Positions 3,137-15,039 of a stretch of 15,181 nt of DNA are shown here, in pieces (within the stretch, counting starts at the first letter, position 1; every line of letters begins with the position of its first letter). Source of the stretch: a bacterium (lineage in GTDB: Bacteria > Patescibacteriota > Minisyncoccia > Phycocordibacterales > UBA6065); contig JAUSGU010000044.1 in the NCBI GenBank assembly GCA_030648825.1, forward strand, positions 1 to 15,181. The letters run 5' to 3'. Below the pieces are notes generated by a model. That model was not told the origin of the DNA. It saw only the letters and a program-made list of their open reading frames with translations, and searched no databases. The position numbers and the translations under genes are program-made.

Positions 3137-4000
3137 TTATTTTAATTTTAAGGATGCAGAGATCAGATTATCAAATAAAGAAAGAACTGTCATGGGACCG
3201 ACACCGCCCGGTACCGGTGTAATAGCCGAAACAACAGCGAAAATATTACCGAAATCCACATCCCCCACCAATTTTCGCTTCGGAATTTCTTCTTCCAACT
3301 TTTCACCATACACGCTATTTATACCTACATCTATGACTATGGCCCCATCACGCACATATGAACGATCTATAAATTCCGGCTTGCCCACAGCCACTATGAC
3401 AATATCCGATTGTTTTGTGATTTCTCTGGTATTTGCAGTTTTTGAATGACAAACAGTAACATTTGCGCCCTCCATTTCAAGCATTCTGGCTATAGGACCA
3501 CCGACCAAACGAGAACGTCCCAAAACCGCTATTTTTTTGCCACTTACGGAAATTTTATAGAAATCTAAGAGAAGCATTACCCCACGAGCCGTGGCGGGAA
3601 CAAATCGTGGCTTGCCTTCTGCCAAAAGTTTGACATTTTCATCCGTGAGACCGTCCACATCTCGTTTCGGATCTATGAGATTCACCAGTTTGAGAAAATC
3701 CAAATGTGCAGGCACAGGCGATTGAATAATAATTCCTGAAACTTCAGATTTTGAATTTTCTCCTAGAATGATGCGCGCGATTTCATCAAAAGTTGCTTCC
3801 GCCGGCAAATGGATATGAGAAACACTCACGCCGATTGATAGACCGAAATTTTTCTTTTGTTCAATGTATATCGCAGACTCTCTATTATCGCCAATTTGAA
3901 TTATTGACAGAGTCGGCACAAAAGAAAGTTTTTTCACCCTCTCTATGAGAGTTTTTTTATAGAAATCACGCGCTATTTTGCCGTCCAGAATTTGAGGCAT
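3137..4000 (-). CDS. folD: Bifunctional methylenetetrahydrofolate dehydrogenase/cyclohydrolase FolD
   Basis: A cytosolic C1-folate enzyme of 287 residues that interconverts methylene-, methenyl- and formyl-tetrahydrofolate with NADP. The active-site Tyr and Lys are in YIEQKK (Y45, K49). Folate-site residues are in QSPVPAHL (93-100) and DVDGLT (114-119). The Rossmann loop GRSRLVGGPIA is at 161-171, then VGKPEF (205-210), and the C-terminal signature PVPGGVGPMT is at 262-271. All expected motifs are present. The start is fixed by the conserved N-terminus and by an extended -10 whose hexamer ends exactly 6 nt before the ATG. It begins 15 nt after the gene ending at 4016 and is followed by the SIMPL gene. 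With the reductase at the left edge it suggests a retained folate/thymidylate branch. Confidence 0.96.
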   Translation of the reverse strand: MPQILDGKIARDFYKKTLIERVKKLSFVPTLSIIQIGDNRESAIYIEQKKNFGLSIGVSVSHIHLPAEATFDEIARIILGENSKSEVSGIIIQSPVPAHLDFLKLVNLIDPKRDVDGLTDENVKLLAEGKPRFVPATARGVMLLLDFYKISVSGKKIAVLGRSRLVGGPIARMLEMEGANVTVCHSKTANTREITKQSDIVIVAVGKPEFIDRSYVRDGAIVIDVGINSVYGEKLEEEIPKRKLVGDVDFGNIFAVVSAITPVPGGVGPMTVLSLFDNLISASLKLK

Positions 4001-4006
4001 GGAGAA

Positions 4007-4015
4007 ACTATATCA
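4007..4015 (-). promoter_or_regulatory. Extended -10 promoter of folD, predicted leaderless
   Basis: Minus strand reads TGA TATAGT, then 6 nt (TTCTCC), then the folD ATG. Transcription 7 nt after the hexamer would start at the A of ATG. The TGA abuts the TAA stop of the preceding gene (4016-4018). Confidence 0.65.
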
Positions 4016-4570
4016 TTAAACTGCTCTTGCAATAGAAGCGATGACAAATATGCCTATGGTATTGAACGTGTATGAAATGAGGGCGAAACGCATAGGCGAT
4101 ATTTTGGAGAGTCCCATCAGAGTGAGACCGAGCTCGTCGGGAAATGGCGAGGCGATGATCAGAGCTCCGAGAAAAGCCATAGACCATCGCACGAACCTGA
4201 ATTCAAAGAGATGTTTTATACGTTTTGATTTTGCTTTTGAAAAGAGATATGAAACATCTTCCGATATGTGGCCTTTGATAAAATTGAATATGATGAAATC
4301 GCCTACGAGAGCACCTAATCCACCGACCAGAGCCAGAACGTATGGCGGATATATATGGGCAAGTTTAGCTATGAAAACTATCGCTGGTGCTGTAGTAAAA
4401 GCGGAAGTAAAAAACAATCCAACCACAAAAGAATTGAGAATATAAAAACCATCCAATGAAAATATAAAACGATCTATGAATGGACTTTCTGCCAGAGCCC
4501 AAGCGACTAATACACTAATGACAACAATTATCCCATCACGGAATAGTCTCCGTCTCTTCCTTTTTTCCAT
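4016..4570 (-). CDS. Polytopic membrane protein, possibly VTT/DedA-like
   Basis: A 184-residue integral membrane protein. A basic N-terminus (KRKRRRLF) is followed by about five hydrophobic segments: near 12-28, 42-68, 76-96, 130-145 and 160-180. Between them lie ALVGGLGALVGDFIIF and ASPFPDELGLTLMGLSKI. These recall the Gly-Asp and Pro-Gly re-entrant features of the VTT/SNARE-associated (DedA) family, whose members flip lipids, but the match is loose and the DedA signatures seen in the gene at 11813-12409 are missing. I would call it a conserved membrane protein of unknown function. It has its own promoter 6 nt upstream, and its stop touches the folD promoter. The start is supported by that promoter and by the positive-inside N-terminus. 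Confidence 0.75.
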   Translation of the reverse strand: MEKRKRRRLFRDGIIVVISVLVAWALAESPFIDRFIFSLDGFYILNSFVVGLFFTSAFTTAPAIVFIAKLAHIYPPYVLALVGGLGALVGDFIIFNFIKGHISEDVSYLFSKAKSKRIKHLFEFRFVRWSMAFLGALIIASPFPDELGLTLMGLSKISPMRFALISYTFNTIGIFVIASIARAV

Positions 4571-4576
4571 GAGAGT

Positions 4577-4585
4577 ATTGTAACA
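4577..4585 (-). promoter_or_regulatory. Extended -10 promoter of the 4570 gene, predicted leaderless
   Basis: Minus strand reads TGT TACAAT, then ACTCTC, then ATG at 4570. The hexamer-to-ATG distance is exactly 6 nt. There is no -35-like sequence at 17 nt (that region is the arm of the hairpin 4589-4707), so recognition would rest on the extended -10. Confidence 0.65.
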
Positions 4586-4588
4586 AAT

Positions 4589-4707
4589 AAAAAGTGCGGA
4601 AGGGATGTTCGAGTGGAGACGCCTGAGACCTGACGAGGCCGAAGCCGAGAAAGTTTTCTAGCAAGAAAACTTTCGTGCTCCACGAGAACATCCCTTCCGC
4701 ACTTTTT
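4589..4707 (-). terminator. Long nested-hairpin terminator after the 5348-4713 gene
   Basis: Positions 4589-4610 pair perfectly with 4686-4707 (22 bp). The helix continues through a GA/GA internal mismatch, which can form sheared tandem G-A pairs, into GTGGAG/CTCCAC (4613-4618 with 4678-4683). An inner perfect 11-bp hairpin is formed by 4649-4659 and 4664-4674 (loop AGCA). It begins 6 nt past the stop of the secreted-protein gene on the minus strand and has A-tract and T-tract flanks, so it works in either direction. The enclosed GAG-rich stretch (about 4619-4648) is extra to a normal terminator. Confidence 0.85.
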
Positions 4708-4712
4708 TATAT

Positions 4713-5348
4713 TTACAAATTAATCTCCTTTGCCGAATTGAACACACCACCATCCACAACTAGAATTTTCGTGCGCGGAACTGTGGGAAACGCCGCGAGA
4801 GGCTCGCCCTTGTCATGATCCATATAAGAAACGGAAACAATCAAACCGCCAGAAACTTCATCGGCGCGCAGGCCGGTAATTTTCACTCTATCGCCTACGA
4901 GAGAATAGGATTTGTCGGTGAGATTGCCGTCCCTATCTTCAAACAGAACAACATAATTAAATGTTCCAGAACCACCCGAATTGACGGATAGACTAGTCAC
5001 AACATATTTCGTGTCGCCTACGACTTTCTCCACCGCCACATCACCGAGAACAATCATGCCTTTCACATTTTCAGACGTGAATTGTGCCATGCCTTTTACG
5101 AGAGCCGTACGATCGCCACTCTCGCCTGCCGAAACGGATACGCTTCCCAAACGAGCGAGCAGAGTCGCATCTGTCGTGTCTTTATCGGTAACGGCGAAGT
5201 CATCGCGGTTTACTCCGTCTTCTTCCGTAGATACAGGAGAACCATCGGTATCGGCCGGCGCGGGGGCATTTTTAGCGCCCCAAGCCATATAACCTATGAC
5301 GACGAGAACAATAATAATTATAATGACGATAATTCCTTTTTTATTCAT
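4713..5348 (-). CDS. Secreted/membrane-anchored protein of unknown function
   Basis: A 211-residue protein with an N-terminal TM anchor (about residues 4-23; a long run of I/V) and no lipobox Cys, then an acidic Thr/Asp-rich linker (about 30-60) and an extracytoplasmic domain. I do not recognise the first part of the domain. The end, VSYMDHDKGEPLAAFPTVPRT (about 174-194), resembles a GEP-x-A-x-P-[ST]-V tail found near the C-terminus of other bacterial envelope proteins with undefined roles (inference from memory). It is a single-gene unit: a promoter at 5384-5392 gives a roughly 30-nt leader without Shine-Dalgarno sequence, and the big hairpin at 4589-4707 ends it. Confidence 0.75.
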   Translation of the reverse strand: MNKKGIIVIIIIIVLVVIGYMAWGAKNAPAPADTDGSPVSTEEDGVNRDDFAVTDKDTTDATLLARLGSVSVSAGESGDRTALVKGMAQFTSENVKGMIVLGDVAVEKVVGDTKYVVTSLSVNSGGSGTFNYVVLFEDRDGNLTDKSYSLVGDRVKITGLRADEVSGGLIVSVSYMDHDKGEPLAAFPTVPRTKILVVDGGVFNSAKEINL

Positions 5349-5383
5349 AAATATGAGATTAATTAAATTTTAGCTACATGAGG

Positions 5384-5392
5384 ACTATATCA
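5384..5392 (-). promoter_or_regulatory. Extended -10 promoter of the 5348 gene
   Basis: Minus strand reads TGA TATAGT, the same nonamer as at folD. Here the predicted start site lies about 30 nt before the ATG at 5348, so this transcript would carry a short A/T-rich leader. It contains no purine-rich ribosome binding site. Confidence 0.5.
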
Positions 5393-5413
5393 TAACGCTT
5401 TTTTTTATCAATA

Positions 5414-6496
5414 CTATTTGATGACAATGACAATTTCCTCTCCTCCGGTAGAAGAAACAACATTAAACGACAATCTACCTATGATTTGTCCGCGAGGCGT
5501 GCGCACATCCACTCGCCAACGACCCGGAAACACATCCTCTCTGATTGAATATGTCCTAAAACCGCCTTCCCTGCCACCGCTTATGCGCAGAGGAATCGGA
5601 TTAAAGGCTATCCAACCCTCTCTCGCCTGATCATAATATTGCCAAACATGAACAATGTCGGTTTCCAGTTTTGTCGGCGCAAAAATGAGAGATAGAGCGT
5701 AGAGTGGTTCGCCGTAAATCACATGGATAGTCGGCCTCGGGGAAAATATATTGAACCATTTTTGTTTTTCGCCGGAAACAGAATATACACCGTCATTAAT
5801 TTTTACGATAGAACGATAAATACCCGCATCTTTGAGAGCCAGAGGTATGGGCGGAATCAGATTGGTGAAATAGAGAATATTTATAATTCCAAACAGTCCG
5901 AAAAGCGCCGAGATAATGATGGGGGCGCTTTGCTTGGTTCTATCCGGCGCGAACCAAGAGAGAATGTATATAAAGAGACCCGTTATGATGAGACTAGCTA
6001 TGCCGGAAAGCAGGAATATGGCATCCCCCATAGAACCCAAAATGACCGGTAAGAAAAATATGAGATAAGAGAAGAGGGCGGTGAAAAAAACGGCAACCTG
6101 AAAACCGAGACGAATATAATTTTTTCGCAAAATTTCGTTACCGGCGATATAAGCGATAATCATGAGCAAAAATGGCCAGGAACCGACGAGTGTTCCACTC
6201 TTTGAATAAAAGAGAAACGAGGCACTGAACAGACCACCGAGACAGAACTGCATGGCGAATATGAGAATAAAACGAAGCGTTTCCGAGCGTTCGGATTCGC
6301 TACGTCTATGCTCGTGGACATTGAGCAAGAGAATTGACAGCGCCGATATTACGAGATAAGTAATCAAAATAGCGTTACTCAAAAAAACATCAATCCTGCG
6401 TAACGTGAGATTATCAAATATAAAACCCATGACGACTGTTACGGGTGATATCCACCTCTCGTATTTTTTGAAAAATAATTGTATATGTGAAACCAT
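5414..6496 (-). CDS. Multi-TM protein with C-terminal DUF2914 domain
   Basis: A 360-residue protein from the ATG at 6496. The N-terminal two thirds hold about six or seven TM helices (roughly residues 34-54, 70-90, 100-118, 124-145, 150-175, 185-205). The last 90 residues match DUF2914: HVWQYYDQAREGWIAF, a strand pair, then GGFRTYSIREDVFPGRWRVD and GQIIGRLSFNVV. This all-beta domain of unknown role usually follows membrane helices or transcription-regulator-like parts and is likely outside the membrane here. The frame is open to an ATG at 6523, but TATAAT ends 6 nt before the ATG at 6496, which would leave the upstream ATG untranscribed, so 6496 is preferred. It is followed by 65 A/T-rich nt and the next promoter. 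Confidence 0.85.
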   Translation of the reverse strand: MVSHIQLFFKKYERWISPVTVVMGFIFDNLTLRRIDVFLSNAILITYLVISALSILLLNVHEHRRSESERSETLRFILIFAMQFCLGGLFSASFLFYSKSGTLVGSWPFLLMIIAYIAGNEILRKNYIRLGFQVAVFFTALFSYLIFFLPVILGSMGDAIFLLSGIASLIITGLFIYILSWFAPDRTKQSAPIIISALFGLFGIINILYFTNLIPPIPLALKDAGIYRSIVKINDGVYSVSGEKQKWFNIFSPRPTIHVIYGEPLYALSLIFAPTKLETDIVHVWQYYDQAREGWIAFNPIPLRISGGREGGFRTYSIREDVFPGRWRVDVRTPRGQIIGRLSFNVVSSTGGEEIVIVIK

Positions 6497-6502
6497 GTCT
6501 AC

Positions 6503-6508
6503 ATTATA
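6503..6508 (-). promoter_or_regulatory. -10 TATAAT of the DUF2914 gene, predicted leaderless
   Basis: A perfect TATAAT on the minus strand, then GTAGAC, then ATG at 6496: the 6-nt spacing again. No TGn and no good -35 are seen. It decides the start of the DUF2914 gene. Confidence 0.6.
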
Positions 6509-6557
6509 TAATGACGCTATCATCTACATCCCTGTATTCTACCCTATACACCACACA

Positions 6558-6566
6558 TGATATTAT
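6558..6566 (+). promoter_or_regulatory. Extended -10 promoter of the FkbM-type gene, predicted leaderless
   Basis: TGA TATTAT, then TAGTAC, then ATG at 6573 (6-nt spacing). It is divergent from the DUF2914 promoter within a 76-nt intergenic region, and no -35 is apparent. Confidence 0.65.
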
Positions 6567-6572
6567 TAGTAC

Positions 6573-7373
6573 ATGAAACTCGCCACCCTGATAAAGGAAA
6601 AGTTGAAAACTATTCTATTTAAGAGAAACTTGCAGATTATTTCTATAACAAATAAGTCCTCTCTTGAGACGTTTTTTACCAGTATCAAACCAGTTTCAAC
6701 AAATTACCGCCTCATCAGGATCGGTGGTGAATCGGACGGCGGGTATTTAATTCCAGACGATTTAGAGGGCATTAAAATCTGCTTTTCGCCCGGGGTCTCT
6801 ACGGTTACCGATTTTGAGTCTGATATGGCCAAGAGAGGTATGACATGCTTTCTCGCCGATTATTCCGTTCCAGCACCGCCGTCACATAACCAGTCTTTTC
6901 ACTTTGAAAAAAAGTATCTCGGCCAGGCGAATAATTCAGTGTATACGACACTTGAAAAGTGGGTAGAACGAAACGCACCCCAGCAAAAAGATTTTATCTT
7001 ACAGATGGATATTGAGGGCAGTGAATATGGCGTGATTCTTGATACCGATGCCGAGATTCTTCGAAAATTCAGAATTCTGGTCGTTGAATTTCATAAAATA
7101 GACAATTTGACCAGCCGACTTGGTTTTGAGCTTATTAACCTCACCTTTGAAAAATTACTGAGAGATTTTGTTGTTGTTCACATTCATCCTAACAACTACT
7201 CTAAACCCATTCAGTATTTAGGATACCTCATACCACCCGTAATGGAGTTCACATTTTTGAGAAAAGACAGGATTCTCCACAGCCATCCGACTATGCATTT
7301 TCCTCATCCACTGGACAGAAAAAATATAGCCGAAAAAGACGACGTGCCACTGCCGACGTGCTGGTACAGTTAA
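6573..7373 (+). CDS. FkbM family SAM-dependent methyltransferase
   Basis: A 266-residue protein of the FkbM methyltransferase family, which O-methylates sugars, polyketides and other small molecules, often in surface-polysaccharide loci. Visible blocks: IGGESDGGYLIPDDL (about 50-64); FSPGVSTVTDFE (71-82), where the SAM-binding loop is expected; a CFLADYSVPAPP strand-loop; and QMDIEGSEYGVI (144-155), the conserved D-x-E-G-x-E signature, with VEFHKID later. The substrate cannot be told. No glycosyltransferase neighbours are in the window, so it stands alone, with its own leaderless-type promoter, facing the tRNA-His gene. The start is supported by the promoter 6 nt upstream. Confidence 0.88.
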   Translation: MKLATLIKEKLKTILFKRNLQIISITNKSSLETFFTSIKPVSTNYRLIRIGGESDGGYLIPDDLEGIKICFSPGVSTVTDFESDMAKRGMTCFLADYSVPAPPSHNQSFHFEKKYLGQANNSVYTTLEKWVERNAPQQKDFILQMDIEGSEYGVILDTDAEILRKFRILVVEFHKIDNLTSRLGFELINLTFEKLLRDFVVVHIHPNNYSKPIQYLGYLIPPVMEFTFLRKDRILHSHPTMHFPHPLDRKNIAEKDDVPLPTCWYS

Positions 7374-7383
7374 TTTTTCATTG

Positions 7384-7456
7384 GGTGGCTAGAGAGAATC
7401 GAACTCTCATTTTTGGTTCCACAAACCAAAGTCCTGACCATTGAACGATAGCCACC
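7384..7456 (-). tRNA. tRNA-His(GTG)
   Basis: The cloverleaf reads on the minus strand with an 8-bp acceptor (GGTGGCTA/TAGCCACC), i.e. the extra G-1:C73 pair that marks tRNA-His. D arm GTTC/GGAC with GG in the loop; anticodon stem TTGGT/ACCAA, loop TTGTGGA, so the anticodon is GTG; T arm GAGAG/CTCTC with loop TTCGATT. CCA is not encoded. It starts 1 nt after the stop of the HNH gene 7964-7458, so it is probably processed from that transcript or from one that reads through. A TATAAT abutting its 5' end is too close to serve it. Confidence 0.95.
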
Positions 7457-7457
7457 A

Positions 7458-7964
7458 TTATACTTTCTGTTTTTGGAATAGACCCAAAAACTTTTGCTTC
7501 TCTACCTTATCACGATGAACCAGATGATGACAATTATGACACAACCAAGCAAGATTGTTTAGGATGTTATTTCTATGATTTCCATCAACATGATGCACAG
7601 CCAAAACTTTTGTATTTCTGGTTTTACATAAAACACATATGTGTTTAGAATTACTATTTTTCAGTAATTTCCTGTACGTCGAATAACCACCTATCCATCT
7701 CCCATGCCGAAAACCAGAAAATTCTTTATTTCTCCATTTTGTCTGACAAGATTTGCTACAAAAATATTTTGTACTTTTCGAGCTACTCAAGTTTTTAGGT
7801 GTACGATATATGTTTCTTCCGCAAGTAAAACATTTGACACATTTTCCAGTTTTCTGACTTATTCCCTTGCATTCAATCGAACAAAATATTCCCCAATTAT
7901 TTTTGAGATGGGCGGGTCTGGCGTAAAAAAGGTTGCTACAAATTTTACATTTAACGTATGGCAT
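7458..7964 (-). CDS. HNH endonuclease with N-terminal zinc ribbons (paralogue 2)
   Basis: A 168-residue protein from the ATG at 7964 (a TTG one codon earlier is possible). Two CxxC...CxxxC zinc-ribbon-like units come first (about residues 6-33 and 44-72), then a His/Gly/Trp-rich link (RHGRWIGG), then an HNH nuclease: CVLC, LAVHHVDGNHRNN, NLAWLCHNCHHLVH, with the expected His-His, Asn and His plus a CxxC...CxxC zinc site. HNH nucleases of this type are found as homing or mobile enzymes and in phages. It is colinear in every domain with the gene just upstream and overlaps it by 14 nt in another frame, so the two are probably translationally coupled. Base composition is clearly more A/T-rich than in neighbouring genes, which suggests transfer. 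The target is unknown. Confidence 0.85.
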   Translation of the reverse strand: MPYVKCKICSNLFYARPAHLKNNWGIFCSIECKGISQKTGKCVKCFTCGRNIYRTPKNLSSSKSTKYFCSKSCQTKWRNKEFSGFRHGRWIGGYSTYRKLLKNSNSKHICVLCKTRNTKVLAVHHVDGNHRNNILNNLAWLCHNCHHLVHRDKVEKQKFLGLFQKQKV

Positions 7965-8442
7965 CAAATTTATATTTTATTTTCAAATAATTGTGAACAA
8001 GAAAATGGCAGTTATAACAAAGCCACGTCAGATTTTCTGGATTATTATTTTTACGATTTTGATCTATATGATGAACAACAAGAATTCGTTTATCATTTTT
8101 TAGACACAATGTGCAACGATAAGGAAGTTTTTGTCTTTTTAGTATGTTTTTATATGCGTATTGACCACCCTTCCAATTACCATGTCCTTGTCCAATCGTC
8201 AGTCCGCAAAGCCATTGAAGACTACAGGCACGATTACAAAACAATTTGCCACTTTTGGAATTTTTTATAGCTTTAAGTGACTTATAGACTTTTTTCTTGC
8301 ATATATGACAAGAAATCAATTTTCCATTTCTTTTTCCTAAGCCTCTGCATTTTATAGAACAATAAATACCCGAACCTTTTTTCAACCATGATGGTTTCGT
8401 ATAAAACTCATTGCGACATATTTTACATTTCACTATAGACAC
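7951..8442 (-). CDS. HNH endonuclease with N-terminal zinc ribbons (paralogue 1)
   Basis: A 163-residue protein with the same plan as the gene that follows it: IVKCKICRNEFY...GIYCSIKCRG and SCHICKKKVYK...LFCNRACSLQW as two zinc-ribbon-like units, then GHGNWKGG, then an HNH core CTLC, ILVVHHIDQNRKNN, NLTWLCYNCHFLVH. All catalytic and zinc-binding residues appear intact. No ATG is available in frame near the N-terminus; I use GTG at 8442, and GTG three codons later is an alternative. Upstream is strongly A/T-rich with several TATAAT-like hexamers, one about 30 nt before the start. It is the first of the overlapping pair, lies between tRNA-Leu and tRNA-His, and is A/T-rich like its partner. Confidence 0.83.
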   Translation of the reverse strand: MSIVKCKICRNEFYTKPSWLKKGSGIYCSIKCRGLGKRNGKLISCHICKKKVYKSLKAIKNSKSGKLFCNRACSLQWLCGLTIGQGHGNWKGGQYAYKNILKRQKLPYRCTLCLKNDKRILVVHHIDQNRKNNNPENLTWLCYNCHFLVHNYLKIKYKFDAIR

Positions 8443-8556
8443 CTATATATTTTACTAAAAATTATATAGATATGTAAACATGGCGTTTTCTGAAATAACA
8501 GTGAAAACCCCTATATTACCGAACTACGATTATTATAATAATCTACTTAAAATCTG

Positions 8557-8638
8557 TGCTCGGGAGAGGACTTGCACCTCCACGCCTTACGGCACACGCA
8601 CCTCAAGCGTGCTTGGCTACTAATTACAACACCCGAGC
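8557..8638 (-). tRNA. tRNA-Leu(GAG), atypical elbow
   Basis: Class II cloverleaf on the minus strand: acceptor GCTCGGG/CCCGAGC with discriminator A; anticodon stem CACGC/GCGTG with loop TTGAGGT, so the anticodon is GAG; a long variable arm closed by GCC/GGC; T stem GGAGG/CCTCT. Two conserved places differ: the T loop is TGCAAGT (G at position 55 instead of U/pseudouridine), and the D loop (TAATTAGTAGC) has AG where the invariant G18 G19 is expected, over a 3-bp D stem TTG/CAA. CCA is not encoded. It has its own -35/-10 promoter. Confidence 0.88.
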
Positions 8639-8656
8639 ATATAAACCAGCGTGGCC

Positions 8657-8685
8657 ATCATAGCCGAAAACAGAGCTGTTTTCAA
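8657..8685 (-). promoter_or_regulatory. Promoter of tRNA-Leu with palindrome in the spacer
   Basis: Minus strand: TTGAAA (8685-8680), 17-nt spacer, TATGAT (8662-8657), with start site expected about 12 nt before the tRNA. A perfect 18-nt palindrome, GAAAACAG AG CTGTTTTC (8666-8683), covers most of the spacer and part of the -35. It has no T-tract after it, so it is a poor terminator for rplS and a possible operator. Confidence 0.6.
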
Positions 8686-8710
8686 CTTTCCGAATGATTT
8701 CACCGACTCT

Positions 8711-9139
8711 CTATTTCACAACTTCTTCTTTTTTGTCCAGAGTTTTTGACACTCGCGGAGCGACATCTGTCCTCTCGGGTTTTTCGGCTCGTATTTTTTT
8801 CATCTGGCGACGAATTTCTTTTGTCGCTTTTTCGCGGATAAAATAAAGTTTTGAACGACGAACTTTTGATCTGCGGACAATTTCAATTTCATCTATGACC
8901 GGCGAATAGAGAGGAAAAATTCTCTCCACACCCACACCGTCTATCACTTTACGAACGGTAAAAGTAGCACCGGCTTCATCACCGTGTTTTCTCGCCAAAA
9001 TCAGACCTTCAAATGCCTGTAGACGGGTTTTGTCGCCTTCTTTGATTTTCTGCCAAACGCGGACAGTGTCGCCGGAACGGAGTCCGAGACTTTTTCTGGA
9101 TTTCATATCAATCGGAGAAGTGATTACTGTGCTTTCCAT
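8711..9139 (-). CDS. rplS: 50S ribosomal protein L19
   Basis: bL19 sits at the interface of the ribosomal subunits. This one has 142 residues against a usual 115 or so. The core is clear: [59 protein letters not shown] and [19 protein letters not shown]. Extra length is an 8-10 residue N-terminal lead and a charged C-terminal tail of about 30 residues ([20 protein letters not shown]). The ATG at 9139 is supported by a TTGCAT-17-TAAATT promoter that would leave a 5' UTR of about 3 nt; there is no Shine-Dalgarno sequence. It is a single gene, divergent from the tRNA-Val/Arg pair; trmD and rimM are not beside it here. Confidence 0.96.
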
Positions 9140-9148
9140 AGGGAATTC

Positions 9149-9177
9149 AATTTAACATGACACTTGAAGAGATGCAA
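9149..9177 (-). promoter_or_regulatory. rplS promoter
   Basis: Minus strand: TTGCAT (9177-9172), 17 nt, TAAATT (9154-9149), preceded by TGT (extended -10). The predicted start is about 3 nt before the rplS ATG. It overlaps the divergent tRNA promoter. Confidence 0.6.
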
Positions 9178-9192
9178 GAAATAGGCTATAAA
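9164..9192 (+). promoter_or_regulatory. Promoter of the tRNA-Val/tRNA-Arg unit
   Basis: TTGAAG (9164-9169), 17-nt spacer, TATAAA (9187-9192). The predicted start near 9199 gives a leader of about 60 nt before tRNA-Val that contains the partial tRNA copy. Its -35 lies inside the spacer of the rplS promoter. Confidence 0.6.
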
Positions 9193-9213
9193 TATGGAGC
9201 AATTTGAAATTTT

Positions 9214-9271
9214 GTATGCGCCCTTAGCTGTCTTGGTAGGTATACAGCCGAGAACGTATGCGCCCTTAGCT
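9214..9271 (+). repeat. Direct repeat: partial copy of tRNA-Val 5' part upstream of the gene
   Basis: A 16-nt sequence at 9214-9229 recurs exactly at 9256-9271, where it forms the first 12 nt of tRNA-Val plus 4 nt of flank. After three mismatches the match resumes for TTGGTAG, the D loop. The upstream copy therefore equals the acceptor 5' strand and D arm of tRNA-Val, with a modified D-like stem GCTGT/ACAGC (9227-9231 with 9244-9248), and then stops. Confidence 0.85.
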
Positions 9272-9332
9272 CAGTTGGTAGAGCAGCTCATTTACACTGA
9301 GAAGGTCGGGGGTTCAAGTCCCTCAGGGCGCA
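9260..9332 (+). tRNA. tRNA-Val(TAC)
   Basis: Complete cloverleaf: acceptor GCGCCCT/AGGGCGC, discriminator A; D arm GCTC/GAGC with GG in the loop; anticodon loop TTTACAC, so anticodon TAC; T arm GGGGG/CCCTC with loop TTCAAGT. The anticodon stem has a G27-A43 mismatch at its top. CCA is not encoded. Confidence 0.96.
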
Positions 9333-9356
9333 CAGGAGAGATGCGGCAGGCACTTT

Positions 9357-9429
9357 CCCCTCGTAGTTCAATGGATCAGAACTGCGGACTTCTAAGCCGT
9401 CGATGTTGGTTCGATTCCAACCGAGGGGA
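9357..9429 (+). tRNA. tRNA-Arg(TCT)
   Basis: Cloverleaf with acceptor CCCCTCG/CGAGGGG, discriminator A; D arm GTTC/GAAC; anticodon loop CTTCTAA, so anticodon TCT; T arm GTTGG/CCAAC with loop TTCGATT. The base pair closing the anticodon loop is A31-G39, a mismatch. It lies 24 nt after tRNA-Val, likely on the same transcript. CCA is not encoded, and no terminator is seen in the 14 nt before the convergent gene. Confidence 0.93.
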
Positions 9430-9443
9430 CAATAAATCGTAAT

Positions 9444-9746
9444 TTAAAGCGATGGGTCGAAAAGAACGGTTTGAGAGAGATTCTCTGAGTCAAGTTCTCT
9501 GTCGTTTAGTTTTTGTATTACTTGGCTTATATCTTCCTTGTCCAAGGTTTCGATCATACTCGGAATGTTTGTACCTTCCCCGTCACGTATAGACACTCTA
9601 TTGTAGAAAAATAAATCAATCAAAACCGCCGTACAAACGAGAAGAACAAAACATAGAAGAATGAAATACCAATCTAGACGAGGACTGTTCCCCAAACCTC
9701 TCATCATTTCGCCGAATTTATGAAATTTTGTGATTATTGTTTTCAT
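9444..9746 (-). CDS. Small single-TM protein of the pilMNO cluster
   Basis: A 100-residue protein with a basic N-terminus, one TM helix (about residues 28-48, WYFILLCFVLLVCTAVLIDL) and an acidic tail (about 50-100, including TLDKEDISQVIQKLNDRELD). I do not recognise a family. It is last in the pil cluster, with its ATG overlapping the pilO stop by ATGA, so coupling with pilO is likely. By position it corresponds to pilP of Gram-negative pilus operons, but it has no lipobox and no PilP-like beta domain, so the name is not transferred. It may be an inner-membrane partner of PilN/PilO (inference). Confidence 0.75.
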   Translation of the reverse strand: MKTIITKFHKFGEMMRGLGNSPRLDWYFILLCFVLLVCTAVLIDLFFYNRVSIRDGEGTNIPSMIETLDKEDISQVIQKLNDRELDSENLSQTVLFDPSL

Positions 9747-10294
9747 TTTGTGTATTGAGATATATCAATGACAATGTTCCAAACGGAATTTGGAGGAACT
9801 TTTGAGTCAATTGAGCTGTCTGGCATCTTAGACAAACTGATATGGTCTATATTCATCGCATACGGCATCATATCCAGAGCGTTGATGAAAGAAATCGCTT
9901 CTTGCCATGAACCTGACGCGTTTATTCTCACATGCAAAACGCGAAAGACAGAATTTTTAATCACGGGATCCAGATTGATGCCAGTCAATTCGGCTTTTAT
10001 TCCTATATCTCGCGTCTGTCTCTCCAGAAATTCTATAAAACCTGGTACATCGTCCTCTCCGATAAATCTGTTTTCAATTGCGCCAATATCGCCCTCGGTT
10101 CCGCGTAAAACGTTACGAATAGAAGATAAATACGAATCACGATTCGCGGCAGATTTTATTTCATCCGATATGCGAACAATTTCAGATCTGTATGAGTAAC
10201 TCTCTATAATGATAAAAACCCATACGACAGAGAGAACTGTTATGACTAGTCCGATAATTATTAATAACGTCTGTTTAAGTCCGTTTATTTTCAT
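9743..10294 (-). CDS. pilO: PilO-like type IV pilus assembly protein
   Basis: About 183 residues: one N-terminal TM helix (about 8-30), a coiled-coil stretch (SYRSEIVRISDEIKSAANRD), then a ferredoxin-like fold with PGFIEFLERQTRDIGIKAELTGIN and SGSWQEAISFINALDMMPYAMNID, the PilO pattern of a helix followed by a ...F...L...P strand. PilO pairs with PilN to link cytoplasmic PilM to the pilus machine. The start is the ATG at 10294, 2 nt after the pilN stop; a TTG at 10300 overlapping that stop (TTGA) is the alternative. Family assignment rests on fold pattern plus gene order, since PilO diverges quickly. Confidence 0.82.
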   Translation of the reverse strand: MKINGLKQTLLIIIGLVITVLSVVWVFIIIESYSYRSEIVRISDEIKSAANRDSYLSSIRNVLRGTEGDIGAIENRFIGEDDVPGFIEFLERQTRDIGIKAELTGINLDPVIKNSVFRVLHVRINASGSWQEAISFINALDMMPYAMNIDHISLSKMPDSSIDSKVPPNSVWNIVIDISQYTK

Positions 10295-10296
10295 AA

Positions 10297-10833
10297 TCAA
10301 AATTTAGAATGTAAGGAAATGGTAAAAGGAATGTCCTGACTTTTGGCCAGACTGGAAACCGGCAGATCAACCGCCGAAAACGACGATACGATAGCCAGTT
10401 TTTTCGAAAAATCCACCAGCATTTCGCGAGATACGGCCTTGCCGGAGATAATTACGGTCCATCCGTCATTTTTTCTCTCCATAGAAAGAGAAGAGATAGA
10501 TATGCCACTTCCCCTCTCTGAAACAATTTTTTCTATGACAGAAATCGTCGGCTGTTCTCCACTTTTTTGTTCTACGATTGCCGTCAGTTTATTGAGTTTT
10601 TTGACCCGTGTTTCAATTTCCGCCAATCCGTTATCCGTTATTTTTTTGGATACGGCCTCTCGACTCGACAGTATCGCATTTTTTTCGACACGGAGATTTA
10701 TAAACGTAGGCAGGGAAAGACCGATTAAAATCAAAACAAAAAATAAAACGAAGAAGAGACCAAAAACAGAGAGTCTACGGTGATATTCGCCGGCAATTTT
10801 TTTTCTGTATTCCCCTTTTAGAAAAGTAAACAT
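10297..10833 (-). CDS. pilN: PilN-like type IV pilus assembly protein
   Basis: A 178-residue bitopic protein: short basic cytoplasmic N-terminus (FLKGEYRKKIAGEYHRRL, which would contact PilM), one TM helix (about 23-45), a coiled-coil region (about 48-90) and a periplasmic/extracellular alpha-beta domain with ISISSLSMERKNDGWTVIIS and SREMLVDFSKKLA. This is the PilN layout. It is separated from the pilM stop by 1 nt and followed by pilO. The canonical PilN N-terminal INLLP motif is absent. It depends on the pilM promoter; no Shine-Dalgarno sequence is present. Confidence 0.8.
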   Translation of the reverse strand: MFTFLKGEYRKKIAGEYHRRLSVFGLFFVLFFVLILIGLSLPTFINLRVEKNAILSSREAVSKKITDNGLAEIETRVKKLNKLTAIVEQKSGEQPTISVIEKIVSERGSGISISSLSMERKNDGWTVIISGKAVSREMLVDFSKKLAIVSSFSAVDLPVSSLAKSQDIPFTISLHSKF

Positions 10834-10834
10834 A

Positions 10835-11800
10835 TTATATGAGTGATCCTATGCACGGCCCGTAATTGAGCGAATCTCTCTGCGATAATTTCGGCACATT
10901 TTCTTCGGGAGAGAGCACATTTGTCCAGACCGACCCTACGGAAACCGGTATTTTGAAACAAATGGAAATATATCTGACAAAACCCGGTATGAGAGAATCG
11001 CTTCCCACGAGCATGATGCGGGAAATTGAGATATTGTTTTTTATTTTCTTCTCCTGAGTCTTCCAGAAAACCAACACTTTTTCTATTTCATCACGAATGG
11101 TTGAAAAAGTTTTATTTATGTCTTTTGATCTTATATCTATGGAGGAACTAAAAACAGCTATGCCGTTCTCCACTATAAAAATGACTGAATGATTTTCCAT
11201 TATCGTCAGTACCAAGAATATACCGATCGTATCAGGATAAAAGAGAGCTCGGGAGAGAGAGCGCGACTCAGTTTCAAAAGAAATCGGCGAGAGACCGCCG
11301 GACACCAATAGATCGGTATAAGCCGAAATTATTTTTTCCGAAACGACAGATACGGCAACCGTGGTTTCTCCGCGCACTATATCAATAGAAACAACATCGT
11401 ATTCAAAAATTGCTTCAATTGGAGGAATCGGCACATTTTCTTCCAAAATTGACTCTACGGCCTGACGGATTTCATTTGTTTCAATCGTCGGTACCGTCGT
11501 CCGAAATATATAAGCGTCACCTTCATGAATTATGCCATGCACATAATAGTATTTTTGCGTTTTGGTAAAAGCGAATAAAACAGAAACAGCTTCTGTTTTT
11601 TGGTTCTGGTTCATATTCTGTAGGCGAATATCGGGAAAAGGCATCATACCGAAATTTTTCGGCTGCATTTTGCCAGATTTCCGCTTCAATTCAAAGAAAG
11701 AAAGCCTACCGTCAGATATGGAAACGGAAACATTGGCGAGCAAAAGCGATTCTGGGACGGGAAAAGCTCTGGCCAGAAATTTTTTCACCGGAGAATTCAC
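10835..11800 (-). CDS. pilM: PilM-like actin-fold type IV pilus assembly protein
   Basis: A 321-residue cytoplasmic protein of the PilM/FtsA-like actin fold, which forms the inner ring of the pilus machine bound to the PilN tail. The order is right: an N-terminal SISDGRLSFFEL strand-turn (27-38), ESILEENVPIPPIEAIFEYDVV (as in PilM: helix, P, then strand), FETESRSLSRALF, and the late IMLVGSDSLIPGFVRYISICF helix before the usual C-terminal block. The nucleotide-binding DIG-type motifs look degenerate: the first Asp is S27, and the second phosphate loop reads VLTIMENHS. The start is GTG at 11800, fixed by TATACT exactly 6 nt upstream. It is first in pilM-pilN-pilO-small TM gene, right after the DedA gene. 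Confidence 0.83.
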   Translation of the reverse strand: MNSPVKKFLARAFPVPESLLLANVSVSISDGRLSFFELKRKSGKMQPKNFGMMPFPDIRLQNMNQNQKTEAVSVLFAFTKTQKYYYVHGIIHEGDAYIFRTTVPTIETNEIRQAVESILEENVPIPPIEAIFEYDVVSIDIVRGETTVAVSVVSEKIISAYTDLLVSGGLSPISFETESRSLSRALFYPDTIGIFLVLTIMENHSVIFIVENGIAVFSSSIDIRSKDINKTFSTIRDEIEKVLVFWKTQEKKIKNNISISRIMLVGSDSLIPGFVRYISICFKIPVSVGSVWTNVLSPEENVPKLSQRDSLNYGPCIGSLI

Positions 11801-11806
11801 ACATAC

Positions 11807-11812
11807 AGTATA
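11807..11812 (-). promoter_or_regulatory. -10 TATACT of the pil cluster, predicted leaderless
   Basis: Minus strand: the DedA stop TAG, then immediately TATACT, then GTATGT, then the pilM GTG. The 6-nt spacing supports the GTG start. No TGn and no convincing -35 at 17 nt. Confidence 0.55.
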
Positions 11813-12409
11813 CTACACCCTCCTCTGCTTCATCCATTCAAAAACGATCGGCAAAATTGAAATAAAAATTATGATAACAACAATGATGTGGAGATATCGA
11901 CTCATACCAGGAAACGCCGAACCGAGAAAATATCCGGACAAAGTGAGGAGAAGCGTCCAAAGCATACCGCCTATTATGTTATATGTGATAAATGTCCTGT
12001 AACGCATGCCACCTATACCGGCAACAATCGGCGCGAAAGTGCGAACAATAGGCACAAAACGAGCCAGAATTATGGTTTTTACGCCATATTTTTCGTAAAA
12101 CAAACGAGCCCGCTCGGCATGTTTTTTATGAAAAAAGAAAGAATCATCGCGAGAAAATAGAGCGGGACCGACACGTTTGCCGAATGTGTAGCCCACGCTA
12201 TCACCGAGTATAGCTGCTATGGCGACACCTATGATGAGCCAAGATATGTTCAAGTATCCTTGGGACGCAAAAAGTCCCGCCGTAAAAAGAAGCGAATCAC
12301 CTGGCAGAAAAAAACCAAAGAAAAGACCCGACTCGGCAAAAACTATGGCAAAAACACCTACGAGGCCGAGAGCACTGATGAGAAATTGCGGTTCTAGGTA
12401 TTGGAACAT
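11813..12409 (-). CDS. DedA family membrane protein
   Basis: A 198-residue DedA/VTT (SNARE-associated) integral membrane protein; members act as lipid (e.g. undecaprenyl-phosphate or phospholipid) flippases dependent on proton motive force. Features: FAESGLFFGFFLPGDSLLFTAG (about 25-46) with the E and PGD signature; ILGDSVGYTFGKRVG (about 68-82); FYEKYGVKTIILARFVPIVRTFAPIVAGIGGM (about 104-135), with the conserved R-x-x-P...R...P...AG-x-x-x-M pattern; and a C-terminal TM helix and basic tail. Length and motifs are normal. It has its own -10 6 nt upstream of the ATG, and its stop adjoins the pilM promoter. Confidence 0.93.
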   Translation of the reverse strand: MFQYLEPQFLISALGLVGVFAIVFAESGLFFGFFLPGDSLLFTAGLFASQGYLNISWLIIGVAIAAILGDSVGYTFGKRVGPALFSRDDSFFFHKKHAERARLFYEKYGVKTIILARFVPIVRTFAPIVAGIGGMRYRTFITYNIIGGMLWTLLLTLSGYFLGSAFPGMSRYLHIIVVIIIFISILPIVFEWMKQRRV

Positions 12410-12415
12410 TGTTTG

Positions 12416-12421
12416 AGTGTA
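12416..12421 (-). promoter_or_regulatory. -10 TACACT of the DedA gene, predicted leaderless
   Basis: Minus strand: TACACT, then CAAACA, then ATG at 12409. The hexamer is weaker (4 of 6 consensus bases) but has the 6-nt spacing. The rest of the 70-nt gap to the upstream gene shows no clear terminator. Confidence 0.4.
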
Positions 12422-12857: not shown

Positions 12858-13259
12858 CTATTTTTTCAAATTATTTTTATTTTTCGTTCTGTCTATATAA
12901 CTTTGGAGAATTATAGAGGCGGCAGAAGCATCTGTCATGTTCGTCTTGCTCTGAAAGTGTGAAGCTTGATGCGACGACAAGATTTCGGTTTCATATATTA
13001 CTTCCATGCCGAGATCTCTCTCAAGCTCATTTTTAAAAGCTTTTATGTGCGACATAATCGGATTGTCGTTCATTTTATAATCTTTTGACTCGCCTATAAT
13101 GATTTTTTTTATGTCGTGTCCGTTCACCAGATTTTTTATCTCACCGAACAAAAAGTTATCGTTCGGTAAAACCGCTTTCGGAAAAGCCATCATACCTTTA
13201 TCATCCGAAATGGCAATCCCGACCCTCTTTTTTCCATAGTCAATTCCTAAAAGTCGCAT
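12858..13259 (-). CDS. ruvX: Putative Holliday junction resolvase RuvX/YqgF
   Basis: A 133-residue RNase H-fold protein of the YqgF/RuvX family, involved in pre-16S rRNA 5' maturation and proposed as a Holliday junction nuclease. The N-terminal GIDYGKKRVGIAISD (5-19) holds catalytic D7; IIIGES (53-58) follows; ETEILSSHQA (90-99) takes the place of the usual DERLTT..A, keeping the Glu (E92) but not the Asp-Arg; DASAASIILQSYID (110-123) gives the last Asp, D110. The start ATG is 4 nt beyond the ABC exporter stop, with TAATAT 6 nt before the ATG as a weak -10. Probably co-transcribed with the exporter and the tRNA-binding gene. Confidence 0.92.
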   Translation of the reverse strand: MRLLGIDYGKKRVGIAISDDKGMMAFPKAVLPNDNFLFGEIKNLVNGHDIKKIIIGESKDYKMNDNPIMSHIKAFKNELERDLGMEVIYETEILSSHQASHFQSKTNMTDASAASIILQSYIDRTKNKNNLKK

Positions 13260-13263
13260 ATAT

Positions 13264-15039
13264 TTATATTATGAACCCGCCGGCCTGCAGATTCCAGAGT
13301 TTTTTATAGAGGCCACCTTCAGTTTTTACCAGATCGTCATGAGTCCCCTCTTCTCGAATTATACCCTCTTCTATGACGACAATACGATCCATTTTGCGGA
13401 TGGTAGAGAGCCTATGGGCAATGACAACAGTCGTCCTGTCACGCATGAGTGTGTCTAGAGCGTCTTGGATGAGCGCTTCCGAATGTGAATCCAGACTGGA
13501 TGTCGCTTCGTCCAAAATGAGAATCGGCGCGTCTTTCAATATCGCCCGCGCGATTGCTACTCTCTGACGCTCACCTCCGGAAAGTTTGATGCCTCGCTCT
13601 CCGACGAATGTTTCGTATTTAAGTGGTAAATTTTCTATAAACTCATCGCAATGAGCGAGTTTGGCTACACGCATTACTTCTTCATCACTTGCCGTGCGTT
13701 TACCGTAACGAATGTTGTCCATGAGAGAACGGTGAAAGAGCACCGGGTCCTGAGGCACTAGACTGATATTTTCACGTAGACTTTCTTGCGTTACCTCTCC
13801 TATATTTACACCATCAATCAAAATGCTACCGGACGAAGTGTCATAAAGCCTCAAAATAAGGCGTACTATAGTGGTTTTTCCAGCACCACTCGGACCTATG
13901 AGAGCCATTTTCTCACCCGATTTTATAGTCAAATTTATGTCGCGCAGAACGGCTTTATTTTTATTGAAACTGAAGCCGACATTTTTAAATTCCACTTCTC
14001 CACGTACCACTCGTATCGGCTTCGCGCCAGACACGTCTTTTATTTCATGAGGCATATTCAATATATCCACCATTTCCTGCGAATCAGCCATGCTCTCATA
14101 AATATTTCTGATAATTCTGCTCAAACCCCAGAGTTGGTGAGCTAGACCTATGACATAAACTTGAAAGAGTACAAACGTACCTATAGTAACAACACCCTGT
14201 TCCCAAAAACGAACAGCGTAATAAAAAACAGCGAATTCAACGATAAATATGAGCAGAACCTGAACCGAGTCCACGATAGAACTCAAATCCCAGGTGAGAC
14301 GCTGTTTGCGAGCCTGATCATCTGTCACCGATTTGAAACCGAGAACTTCAAACATATACCCTGTGAACAAACTGACGGTATTGTGATTTGTAATACTGTC
14401 TGACAGAAAACCGGTCGTCCTGGAATCGGCGGCCGCCGAGGCAATATCGTATTTGACTTTCCATCTGGAAAATAACCAATTAAATAAGCTAAAAAATATA
14501 ACCCACACAAGTATAATTAGAGAGATAAATCTAGCTTGAATCCAAGTTACTATGATTGCTCCCAGAGCAGTCACAACGAGAGGAATAACTTGATAATAGA
14601 GAGTATCCGACAAGCGTTCAAAAGCGCGACTGAATCGGTTTATTTTCTGCACCAGACTGCCTGTGAAATTACTGGAGAAAAAATTGTAAGAATGGAGCAT
14701 CACATAATCAAAAGTATTCTGTTTGAGCTTGGCCATCACTTTTGATTGCATAGCGCTGGCCATAAATGTAGCACCACGAAAGAGAACCCAAATTACCCCA
14801 TGAATGACGACTATGATATACAGAATATGTATGAGTGATTCAGTTGCGGACACTTTATCGGAAAAGTTTTCCAGTACATCAAAAAATTTTTTGTAATACA
14901 GAGGCACGATGATATTAAAAAAACTTCCCAAAATATAGAAAACGGTACACATCCAAAACAAAAGTTTATACGGGCGAACACCCTGCCACAGAGCCTTGAA
15001 AATCAAGGCTGATTTGATTTTTGTTTGAGATTTTTTCAT
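13264..15039 (-). CDS. ABC exporter, fused permease and ATPase
   Basis: A 591-residue half-transporter of the MsbA/multidrug-export type that works as a dimer in the cytoplasmic membrane. Six TM helices fill about residues 25-320. The ATPase has Walker A GPSGAGKTT (382-390), a Q-loop in SLVPQDPVLF, signature LSGGERQRVAIARA (486-499), Walker B ILILDE (506-511) and an H-loop His in VIAHRLST (H542). The substrate is not predictable; lipids, peptides or drugs are possible. I start at the ATG at 15039 (MKKSQTKIKSAL), because the open frame upstream (to a GTG at 15159) adds 40 residues that overlap a hairpin and do not look like exporter sequence. A TTTAAT 10 nt before this ATG would give a leader of about 4 nt. 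Confidence 0.93.
   Translation of the reverse strand: MKKSQTKIKSALIFKALWQGVRPYKLLFWMCTVFYILGSFFNIIVPLYYKKFFDVLENFSDKVSATESLIHILYIIVVIHGVIWVLFRGATFMASAMQSKVMAKLKQNTFDYVMLHSYNFFSSNFTGSLVQKINRFSRAFERLSDTLYYQVIPLVVTALGAIIVTWIQARFISLIILVWVIFFSLFNWLFSRWKVKYDIASAAADSRTTGFLSDSITNHNTVSLFTGYMFEVLGFKSVTDDQARKQRLTWDLSSIVDSVQVLLIFIVEFAVFYYAVRFWEQGVVTIGTFVLFQVYVIGLAHQLWGLSRIIRNIYESMADSQEMVDILNMPHEIKDVSGAKPIRVVRGEVEFKNVGFSFNKNKAVLRDINLTIKSGEKMALIGPSGAGKTTIVRLILRLYDTSSGSILIDGVNIGEVTQESLRENISLVPQDPVLFHRSLMDNIRYGKRTASDEEVMRVAKLAHCDEFIENLPLKYETFVGERGIKLSGGERQRVAIARAILKDAPILILDEATSSLDSHSEALIQDALDTLMRDRTTVVIAHRLSTIRKMDRIVVIEEGIIREEGTHDDLVKTEGGLYKKLWNLQAGGFII

Follow-up and report, generated by a model that had tools for sequence, protein, structure and literature searches.

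Actinobacteria and archaea possess leaderless genes, in which translation initiates on a 5'-terminal AUG or GUG, as we propose here for a share of the genes of a small bacterial genome. Actinobacteria keep the anti-Shine-Dalgarno (anti-SD) sequence of the 16S rRNA and genes led by a Shine-Dalgarno (SD) sequence, unlike the order studied here. The DNA in question is a stretch of 15,181 nucleotides (contig JAUSGU010000044.1 of assembly GCA_030648825.1; hereafter the window), in which hexamers resembling a promoter -10 element lie directly upstream of start codons. In Deinococcus-Thermus, a TANNNT motif directly before open reading frames (ORFs) was identified experimentally as a promoter -10 element giving leaderless mRNA (PMC12340547). 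The same TANNNT abuts the start codon in the window, where leaderless mRNA is indicated by sequence alone. Compared to Deinococcus, which also has a ribosome-binding-site motif (PMC12340547) and in our own control (D. radiodurans MP1) an SD peak, the window's genome shows no SD peak and its relatives lack the anti-SD. Since that study scanned the bacterial domain (Fig S7), the motif of this phylum may already be contained in that figure. Estrada et al. 2024 (PMC10783764) described SD-scarce genomes lacking CCUCC in the 16S rRNA, and its Table 4 has one Campbellbacteria, one Wolfebacteria, two SR1 and one Peribacter. The 16S state is the same here, but the loss extends to 15/15 readable genomes of an order and to further class members and stands beside a start-abutting -10 element; no promoter analysis was found in the accessible parts of that paper, nor do the words Patescibacteria, Paceibacteria or CPR (candidate phyla radiation) occur in its main text as far as accessible. 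Flavobacterium johnsoniae initiates without SD in a Kozak-like manner with A at -3, and 87% of its predicted transcripts have leaders longer than 10 nucleotides (nt) (PMC6847099). It thus resembles our case in the A at -3 before (here probably leadered) SD-less starts, while its ribosomes, unlike those of the order, retain the anti-SD. Leaderless promoters of the -10 type are known, and so, separately, are scattered losses of the anti-SD. No instance of the two combined across an order was encountered in the literature on leaderless genes, SD or anti-SD in Patescibacteria, CPR, Saccharibacteria and Parcubacteria, covered as titles and abstract openings, mostly without subscription papers and without preprints; in the accessible CPR-related texts 'leaderless' occurred only in reference lists, apart from the naming of YchF in leaderless translation.

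Our reading, to which we assign a probability of roughly 0.84, is that sigma-70-type -10 elements abutting the start codon would give leaderless mRNAs in an order whose 16S tail has lost the anti-SD, and that initiation would proceed via non-SD routes. Order, class, family and genus hereafter denote the taxonomic groups of the window's genome (the own genome, G000), and other G and L numbers denote sampled genomes and loci. The own genome comprises 548,629 bases on 83 contigs, and 277 kb (the window and 40 contigs, of which one was truncated to 20 kb) were analysed. Starts were taken from a motif-blind caller, as longest-ATG starts, or as starts without a near alternative ('unambiguous'), with the mean count per control offset as background. 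TANNNT is located at -12 in 41 of the 237 called starts, compared to 6.5 per control offset, and the peak is likewise obtained with longest-ATG starts (44/236 vs 6.5), with unambiguous starts (18/76 vs 1.7) and with the window left out (35/220 vs 6.0). No SD peak is seen: AGGA, GGAG and GAGG at -14 to -7 amount to 0.71 of background. Hence the genome-wide check proposed in the initial annotation of the window, i.e. a positional peak of the -10 motif and none of the SD, turned out in its favour. For E. coli, the same script yields 0/80 at -12 and, at -11, an SD peak of 17; for D. radiodurans MP1 it yields 5/77 at -12 vs 0.43, together with an SD peak.

In the window, all six genes for which the initial annotation had claimed a -10 hexamer with a spacing of exactly 6 nt to the start codon carry it letter for letter. 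On the minus strand these are folD (4007..4015, extended -10 TGATATAGT, TGA-TATAGT, hexamer 6 nt before ATG 4000), the membrane gene at 4016-4570 (4577..4585, extended -10 TGTTACAAT, TGT-TACAAT), whose VTT_dom match lies below the cut-off, the DUF2914 gene (PF11141; 6503..6508, TATAAT, start ATG 6496), the pilM-like gene (11807..11812, TATACT, start GTG 11800) and dedA (VTT_dom; 12416..12421, TACACT, start ATG 12409); on the plus strand it is the FkbM methyltransferase gene (PF05050; 6558..6566, extended -10 TGATATTAT, TGA-TATTAT, start ATG 6573). The spacing at the DUF2914 gene assumes ATG 6496 and not ATG 6523 of the longer ORF. Pfam confirms FolD, DUF2914, FkbM, L19 and DedA (VTT domain); for pilM, whose name is that of the initial annotation, Pfam gives no match at E 0.01. 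Also as described there, three of the six hexamers carry the upstream TGn and none has a good -35 element, the best TTGACA match at 15-19 bp spacing comprising 2-3 of 6 letters at all six genes, and no convincing SD precedes the starts of the window: AGGA, GGAG or GAGG begins within 16 nt upstream of none of the 22 starts listed. Altogether, 10 of the 21 window genes listed (starts picked by hand, some of them ambiguous) have TANNNT at -12, the four starts beyond the original six being 10294, 13259, that of an HNH gene at 8442 and that of an HNH-like gene at 7967. With the motif-blind caller the count is 6 of 18, where about half a gene is expected (P ~6e-6, with the rest of the genome as background). 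These six sites include four of the original ones; FkbM and pilM are missing because the caller put the FkbM start further in and took the next GTG of pilM.

The peak recurs among relatives, as the initial annotation had expected, though not in all of them. Seventeen genomes were sampled, and we give TANNNT at -12 per starts, background per offset, and SD ratio (own genome, with the anti-SD presumed absent: 41/237, 6.5; 0.71). The peak is present in the own genome and in four of six other order genomes, none of which has an anti-SD: G009 (18/96, 2.6; 1.22), G122 (14/87, 3.1; 0.41), G012 (13/79, 1.8; 1.18) and G004, which belongs to the window's genus and has 57% GC (19/111, 1.6; 0.45). SD enrichment is absent in all six (ratio 0.41 to 1.22). 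The class contributes G139 with an altered tail (2/75, 1.8; 0.47) and the CCTCC-bearing G119 (0/95, 1.5; 1.19) and G118 (5/75, 2.9; 1.46), the remaining phylum G034 (3/94, 0.9; 3.44), G041 (6/62, 1.7; 2.92) and G076 (6/79, 2.7; 7.85); the other genomes are taken up below. Overall, the -12 peak is most pronounced within the order without being confined to it, leaderless promoters reaching beyond the order in G049, and clear SD use is a property of anti-SD-bearing genomes, with G145 as exception. We additionally scanned GTDB species genomes for the 16S tail pattern of the order, which gave at least 120 loci (the named loci). In 120 of these, among the matches listed, TANNNT stands at -12 in 105 of 632 starts vs 16.9 per offset (maximum 27). 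Their record titles, among the matches listed, include Candidatus Nomurabacteria, Kaiserbacteria, Zambryskibacteria, Taylorbacteria, Adlerbacteria, Yonathbacteria and Harrisonbacteria, and 43 of 45 sampled 40-mers of G004 match a Taylorbacteria record. We take the window's order to be Paceibacteria/Parcubacteria.

The missing anti-SD in the 16S rRNA of relatives is the stronger fact, and one beyond the reach of the initial annotation, which was based on the window alone. The own assembly (83 contigs) contains no 16S match. In 4/4 same-genus genomes read (G001, G002, G004, G006) the 3' tail after helix 45 is GGATTATTTCAAG, so the own tail is presumably also devoid of CCTCC. CCTCC is missing in 15/15 readable order genomes (G011 was unreadable, and six other relatives had no 3' end). 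Outside the class, 27 of the 28 phylum members with loci (59 genomes searched, 47 matched) have it, the exception, G063, reading ACCGCC. Among the class loci (best 30 of 60 matching genomes, 74 searched), 14 carry CCTCC and 16 lack it; two of the latter belong to the order. The larger fact is thus a lineage that appears to have dropped SD pairing on both sides, in the 16S rRNA and in the mRNA. A single origin of the loss was considered and rejected, with 6 changes on the best 16S tree (tail excluded), 2 of them forced by starred branches; the tree was made by a quick method, has one long branch and comprises 67 of 69 rows, two having been dropped as their anchor was not found. Tails that look like half-way stages of anti-SD decay occur in five class loci, L265 (G104), L275 (G130), L276 (G113), L277 (G124) and L285 (G139), namely CACTTCTT, ACAACTCC, TTTTCTCC, ATTCTCC and ATATCC. 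The TTCAA..TTGAA of many tails suggested a hairpin conserved at the 3' end of the 16S rRNA; it was dismissed, as the folds are unstable (mean -1.5 kcal/mol, 139 tails).

In its make-up the motif is promoter-like. When 105 sites from five order genomes are pooled, positions not used for selection show T at -15 (0.61), G at -14 (0.50) and A at -9 (0.73), with nothing notable around -35. TGn precedes 48 of these 105 TANNNT at -12 vs 49/546 at control offsets, and 56/105 vs 62/540 control sites in the 120 named loci among the matches listed; this enrichment is a promoter mark. A pyrimidine at -1 is more frequent with the motif (0.81) than without (0.69), an excess so mild that it provides weak evidence for an initiator. 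The start codon is ATG in 103 of 105 motif-bearing starts vs 431 of 485 without motif (20 edge starts left out), where miscalled starts may swell the non-ATG group. The element is moreover conserved at single genes. In the window's family (own, six same-genus and one same-family genome) folD has TATAGT, TAAAGT or TATATT at -12 to -14 in 8/8 and TGn in 7/8, and pilM of the own genome and of the three same-genus orthologs read (G001, G003, G004) has TATACT or TATAAT 6, 7, 6 and 7 nt before an in-frame GTG. What the sequences show directly is thus the motif and its placement, its retention at folD and pilM, the lack of an SD peak and, among the relatives, a changed 16S tail.

To account for these, we propose that the hexamers are sigma-70-type, often extended (TGn), -10 elements from which transcription would begin on the start codon or within about 3 nt of it, so that leaderless transcription and translation probably occur at these sites. 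As the order's 16S 3' tail no longer offers an anti-SD, and the own genome's genes show no SD enrichment, two routes may be taken: 5'-terminal AUG or GUG codons would be read directly, for an estimated fifth to third of the genes in five of seven order genomes, and other genes may use leaders that are poor in G and rich in A, with A at -3 and -6. An early loss of the GTPase Era in these bacteria may have left the tail free to drift. The leaderless share was estimated as the excess over -15 to -10, using a matrix that had been trained on the named loci and was then run on the other genomes. It amounts to 23% in the own genome, 29% in G009, 21% in G122, 20% in G004 and 31% in G012, and is low in G016 (10%) and G010 (7%); these are rough and rather low estimates, since miscalled starts dilute them. 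The corresponding matrix excess in the class is 12% for G145, 14% for G139, 7% for G119, 6% for G118 and 3% for G093, in other phylum members 18% for G034, 25% for G024, 5% for G041, 1% for G076 and 17% for G049, and in the controls -12% for E. coli and 8% for D. radiodurans MP1. The whole-genome translation mode suggested in the initial annotation therefore stands as far as the peak is genome-wide and falls as far as universality is concerned, the share of starts being about 20-31% in five genomes and 7-10% in the two others. That reading was of the right kind but reached too far, and is in this sense partly supported.

Its scope has to be corrected with respect to gene context as well. In the five order genomes, TANNNT at -12 is found in 29/152 starts at a co-directional gap of 0-30 nt, 22/103 at 31-100 nt, 24/151 above 100 nt, 23/144 divergent starts, 3/36 overlapping starts and 4/24 at contig edges. 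The peak is thus independent of the neighbour, and the proposed standard for first-in-operon genes is not the rule; many genes within clusters appear to have a start-abutting promoter of their own. Two of the genes named as examples do not fit it, folD lying 15 nt and pilM 12 nt downstream of a co-directional gene. The 129 operon-internal starts without a -10, which probably have leaders, are rich in A at -12 (0.48), -6 (0.56) and -3 (0.53) and poor in G from -8 to -1 (0.06 to 0.16); a weaker A trend (0.43 at -6, 0.39 at -3) is seen at the 257 other starts without a -10.

Several observations weigh against our reading. Anti-SD loss and the -12 peak are not linked one-to-one across the sampled genomes. 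Two order genomes without anti-SD have a weak peak (G016: 4/79, 1.8; 0.55) or none (G010: 2/87, 2.3; 1.17), and G145 of the class (7/84, 3.1; 2.37) shows SD-like sites despite its missing CCTCC. Conversely, a peak is seen in the CCTCC-bearing class member G093 (11/72, 2.0; 1.55; only 1/19 of the unambiguous starts), in G024 outside the class, whose tail was not read (12/96, 3.8; 1.64), and in G049, which lies outside the class with an intact anti-SD (12/89, 2.0; 2.29; 10/33 of the unambiguous starts). As loss and peak do not track each other, leaderless promoters may predate, or be separate from, the loss of the anti-SD, which would suit the notion that the anti-SD was rendered dispensable by leaderless and A-rich starts. 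The named loci, 120 among the matches listed, show an SD-like excess (25 at -11 vs 6.3), and SD-like starts occur in 31 of 115 scored named loci (with a slightly different motif and window), 24 with one and 7 with two. The folD element is present in some and missing in other orthologs outside the family within the order. For dedA, considered as a second conserved case, most orthologs have no element at that position, and it was rejected as such. The enriched TAATC, a complement of the genus tail treated below, belongs here, too. The SD-like excess of the named loci, among the matches listed, stems from 47 starts at -13 to -10; six of the seven loci with two SD-like starts also have a -10 start, and the proteins behind SD-like starts are in 7 of 8 tested cases without Pfam match, the other being a NUDIX protein. 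Such genes on anti-SD-less contigs are possibly acquired genes, or the contigs chimeric. A few genes with SD-like sites (e.g. AGGAG near -11), some with secretion-signal-like N-termini, were noticed on the anti-SD-less 16S contigs L144, L168, L172, L177, L207, L230 and L242.

Four other explanations have to be weighed against start-abutting leaderless promoters. An unlikely one is that the promoters are real but most mRNAs are leadered from promoters further upstream, leaderless mRNA being a minor by-product. Read-through transcripts are indeed likely where the motif is found at co-directional gaps of 0-30 nt (29/152); on the other hand, in orthologs of folD and pilM the element remains immediately next to the start codon, and the divergent FkbM and DUF2914 genes have 76 bp between their start codons. 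We regard it as improbable that TANNNT at -12 serves translation as an AU-rich signal (Kozak-like or bound by ribosomal protein S1) instead of being a promoter element. The A-enrichment of motif-free operon-internal starts at -12, -6 and -3 (0.48, 0.56 and 0.53) would suit such a signal, as would the S1-repeat proteins found in 24/24 genomes searched (24 of the 72 described below). Against this, the motif requires T-A-n-n-n-T in register with a strong TGn two bases upstream, its ratio to background (all starts) peaks in G004 with its 57% GC, and motif and TGn shift together by 1-2 nt in folD orthologs, as is typical of a promoter.

Slightly more improbable still is a rewritten anti-SD, i.e. 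a changed 16S tail that pairs with a new SD. Much of the order retains a loose A-TTC-A pattern (imposed by the search in the case of the 120 named loci), and complements of the genus tail are enriched before own-genome starts, namely AAATA 2.6-fold, AATAA 2.5-fold, ATAAT 3.8-fold and TAATC 5.4-fold, the last also 2.7-fold in G004. The first three consist of A and T only and are indistinguishable from -10 elements plus A-richness. TAATC, with just 2 of its 14 sites (236 starts) within TATAATC, is only partly due to -10 elements, yet its sites are few and lack a sharp position, being spread from -20 to -9 with five at -13. TTGAA (1.3-fold), TGAAA (1.2-fold) and GAAAT (0.7-fold) are not enriched in the own genome. 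Finally, TANNNT is common in AT-rich DNA and some starts were picked by eye, but chance or an artefact of start choice has a negligible probability, as motif-blind and unambiguous starts both peak at -12 and the E. coli control does not.

Of the translation factors, initiation factor 3 is present in 69 of 72 genomes, including the own one (missing in G002, G042 and G068). Era recognizes GAUCA together with the anti-SD. A one-piece full-length Era match was obtained in 2/72 genomes, both anti-SD-bearing; 13 further genomes pass the cut-off only with same-frame matches summed, as in proteins with two G domains (presumably Der), and all 72 have some weaker match, as expected from related GTPases. 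Loss of Era in most CPR has already been published (PMC10582724, PMC12641178). As a driver of anti-SD loss it was rejected, since Era is missing with and without the anti-SD and its loss can thus be at most a precondition. bS21 occurs in 32/41 anti-SD-bearing vs 4/25 lacking genomes (the own genome counted as lacking), and in 2/6 altered-tail genomes, which were set aside; a link to the anti-SD is not claimed, as the association may merely follow the tree (2 independent pairs on starred branches, 6 on all). With somewhat better than even odds, the whole order and several further class lineages have given up SD pairing entirely, with anti-SD, mRNA SDs and Era gone and starts set by promoter-placed 5' codons plus leaders with A at -3 and -6. 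In a large part of the genes, RNA polymerase would then decide on the start codon. Bacterial translation is assumed to rely on SD:anti-SD pairing by default, and the anti-SD to be nearly universal, so that a large natural lineage without both would allow testing the minimal needs of start selection and how an essential rRNA element is lost. For such genomes, it suggests calling gene starts with a -10-at-start model instead of an SD model.

The remaining -10-like elements of the window all lie on the minus strand. At rplS (PF01245), which the initial annotation had set apart as a -35-bearing contrast, TTGCAT is indeed present at 9172-9177 with 17 bp spacing, but the extended -10 TGTTAAATT (TGT-TAAATT, 9149..9157) at -15 implies a leader of about 3 nt, making rplS near-leaderless and no leadered contrast. 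The gene at 9743-10294 has TAAATT at -12 (10301..10306), that at 12858-13259 TAATAT at -12 (13266..13271). TAAAAT stands 6 nt before GTG 8442 of the HNH gene (PF13392; 8449..8454), with a -35-like TTTACA at 18 bp, and 6 nt before TTG 7967 of the HNH-like gene (7974..7979), whose start is uncertain, ATG 7964 being possible, and whose Pfam match to TRASH is below threshold. These two similar-looking HNH/zinc-finger-like genes are arranged in tandem at 7458-8442, flanked by tRNA-His and tRNA-Leu; each has a non-ATG start with TAAAAT at -12, and they are perhaps mobile. A long, terminator-like inverted repeat (GTGCGGAAGGGATG..CATCCCTTCCGCAC) was noticed by eye at 4590-4706, between the 4570 gene and the gene at 4713-5348. 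Likewise by eye, a partial copy of the start of the tRNA-Val gene (GCGCCCTTAGCT..TTGGTAG) is found at 9218-9333 just upstream of tRNA-Val, perhaps a truncated tRNA copy.

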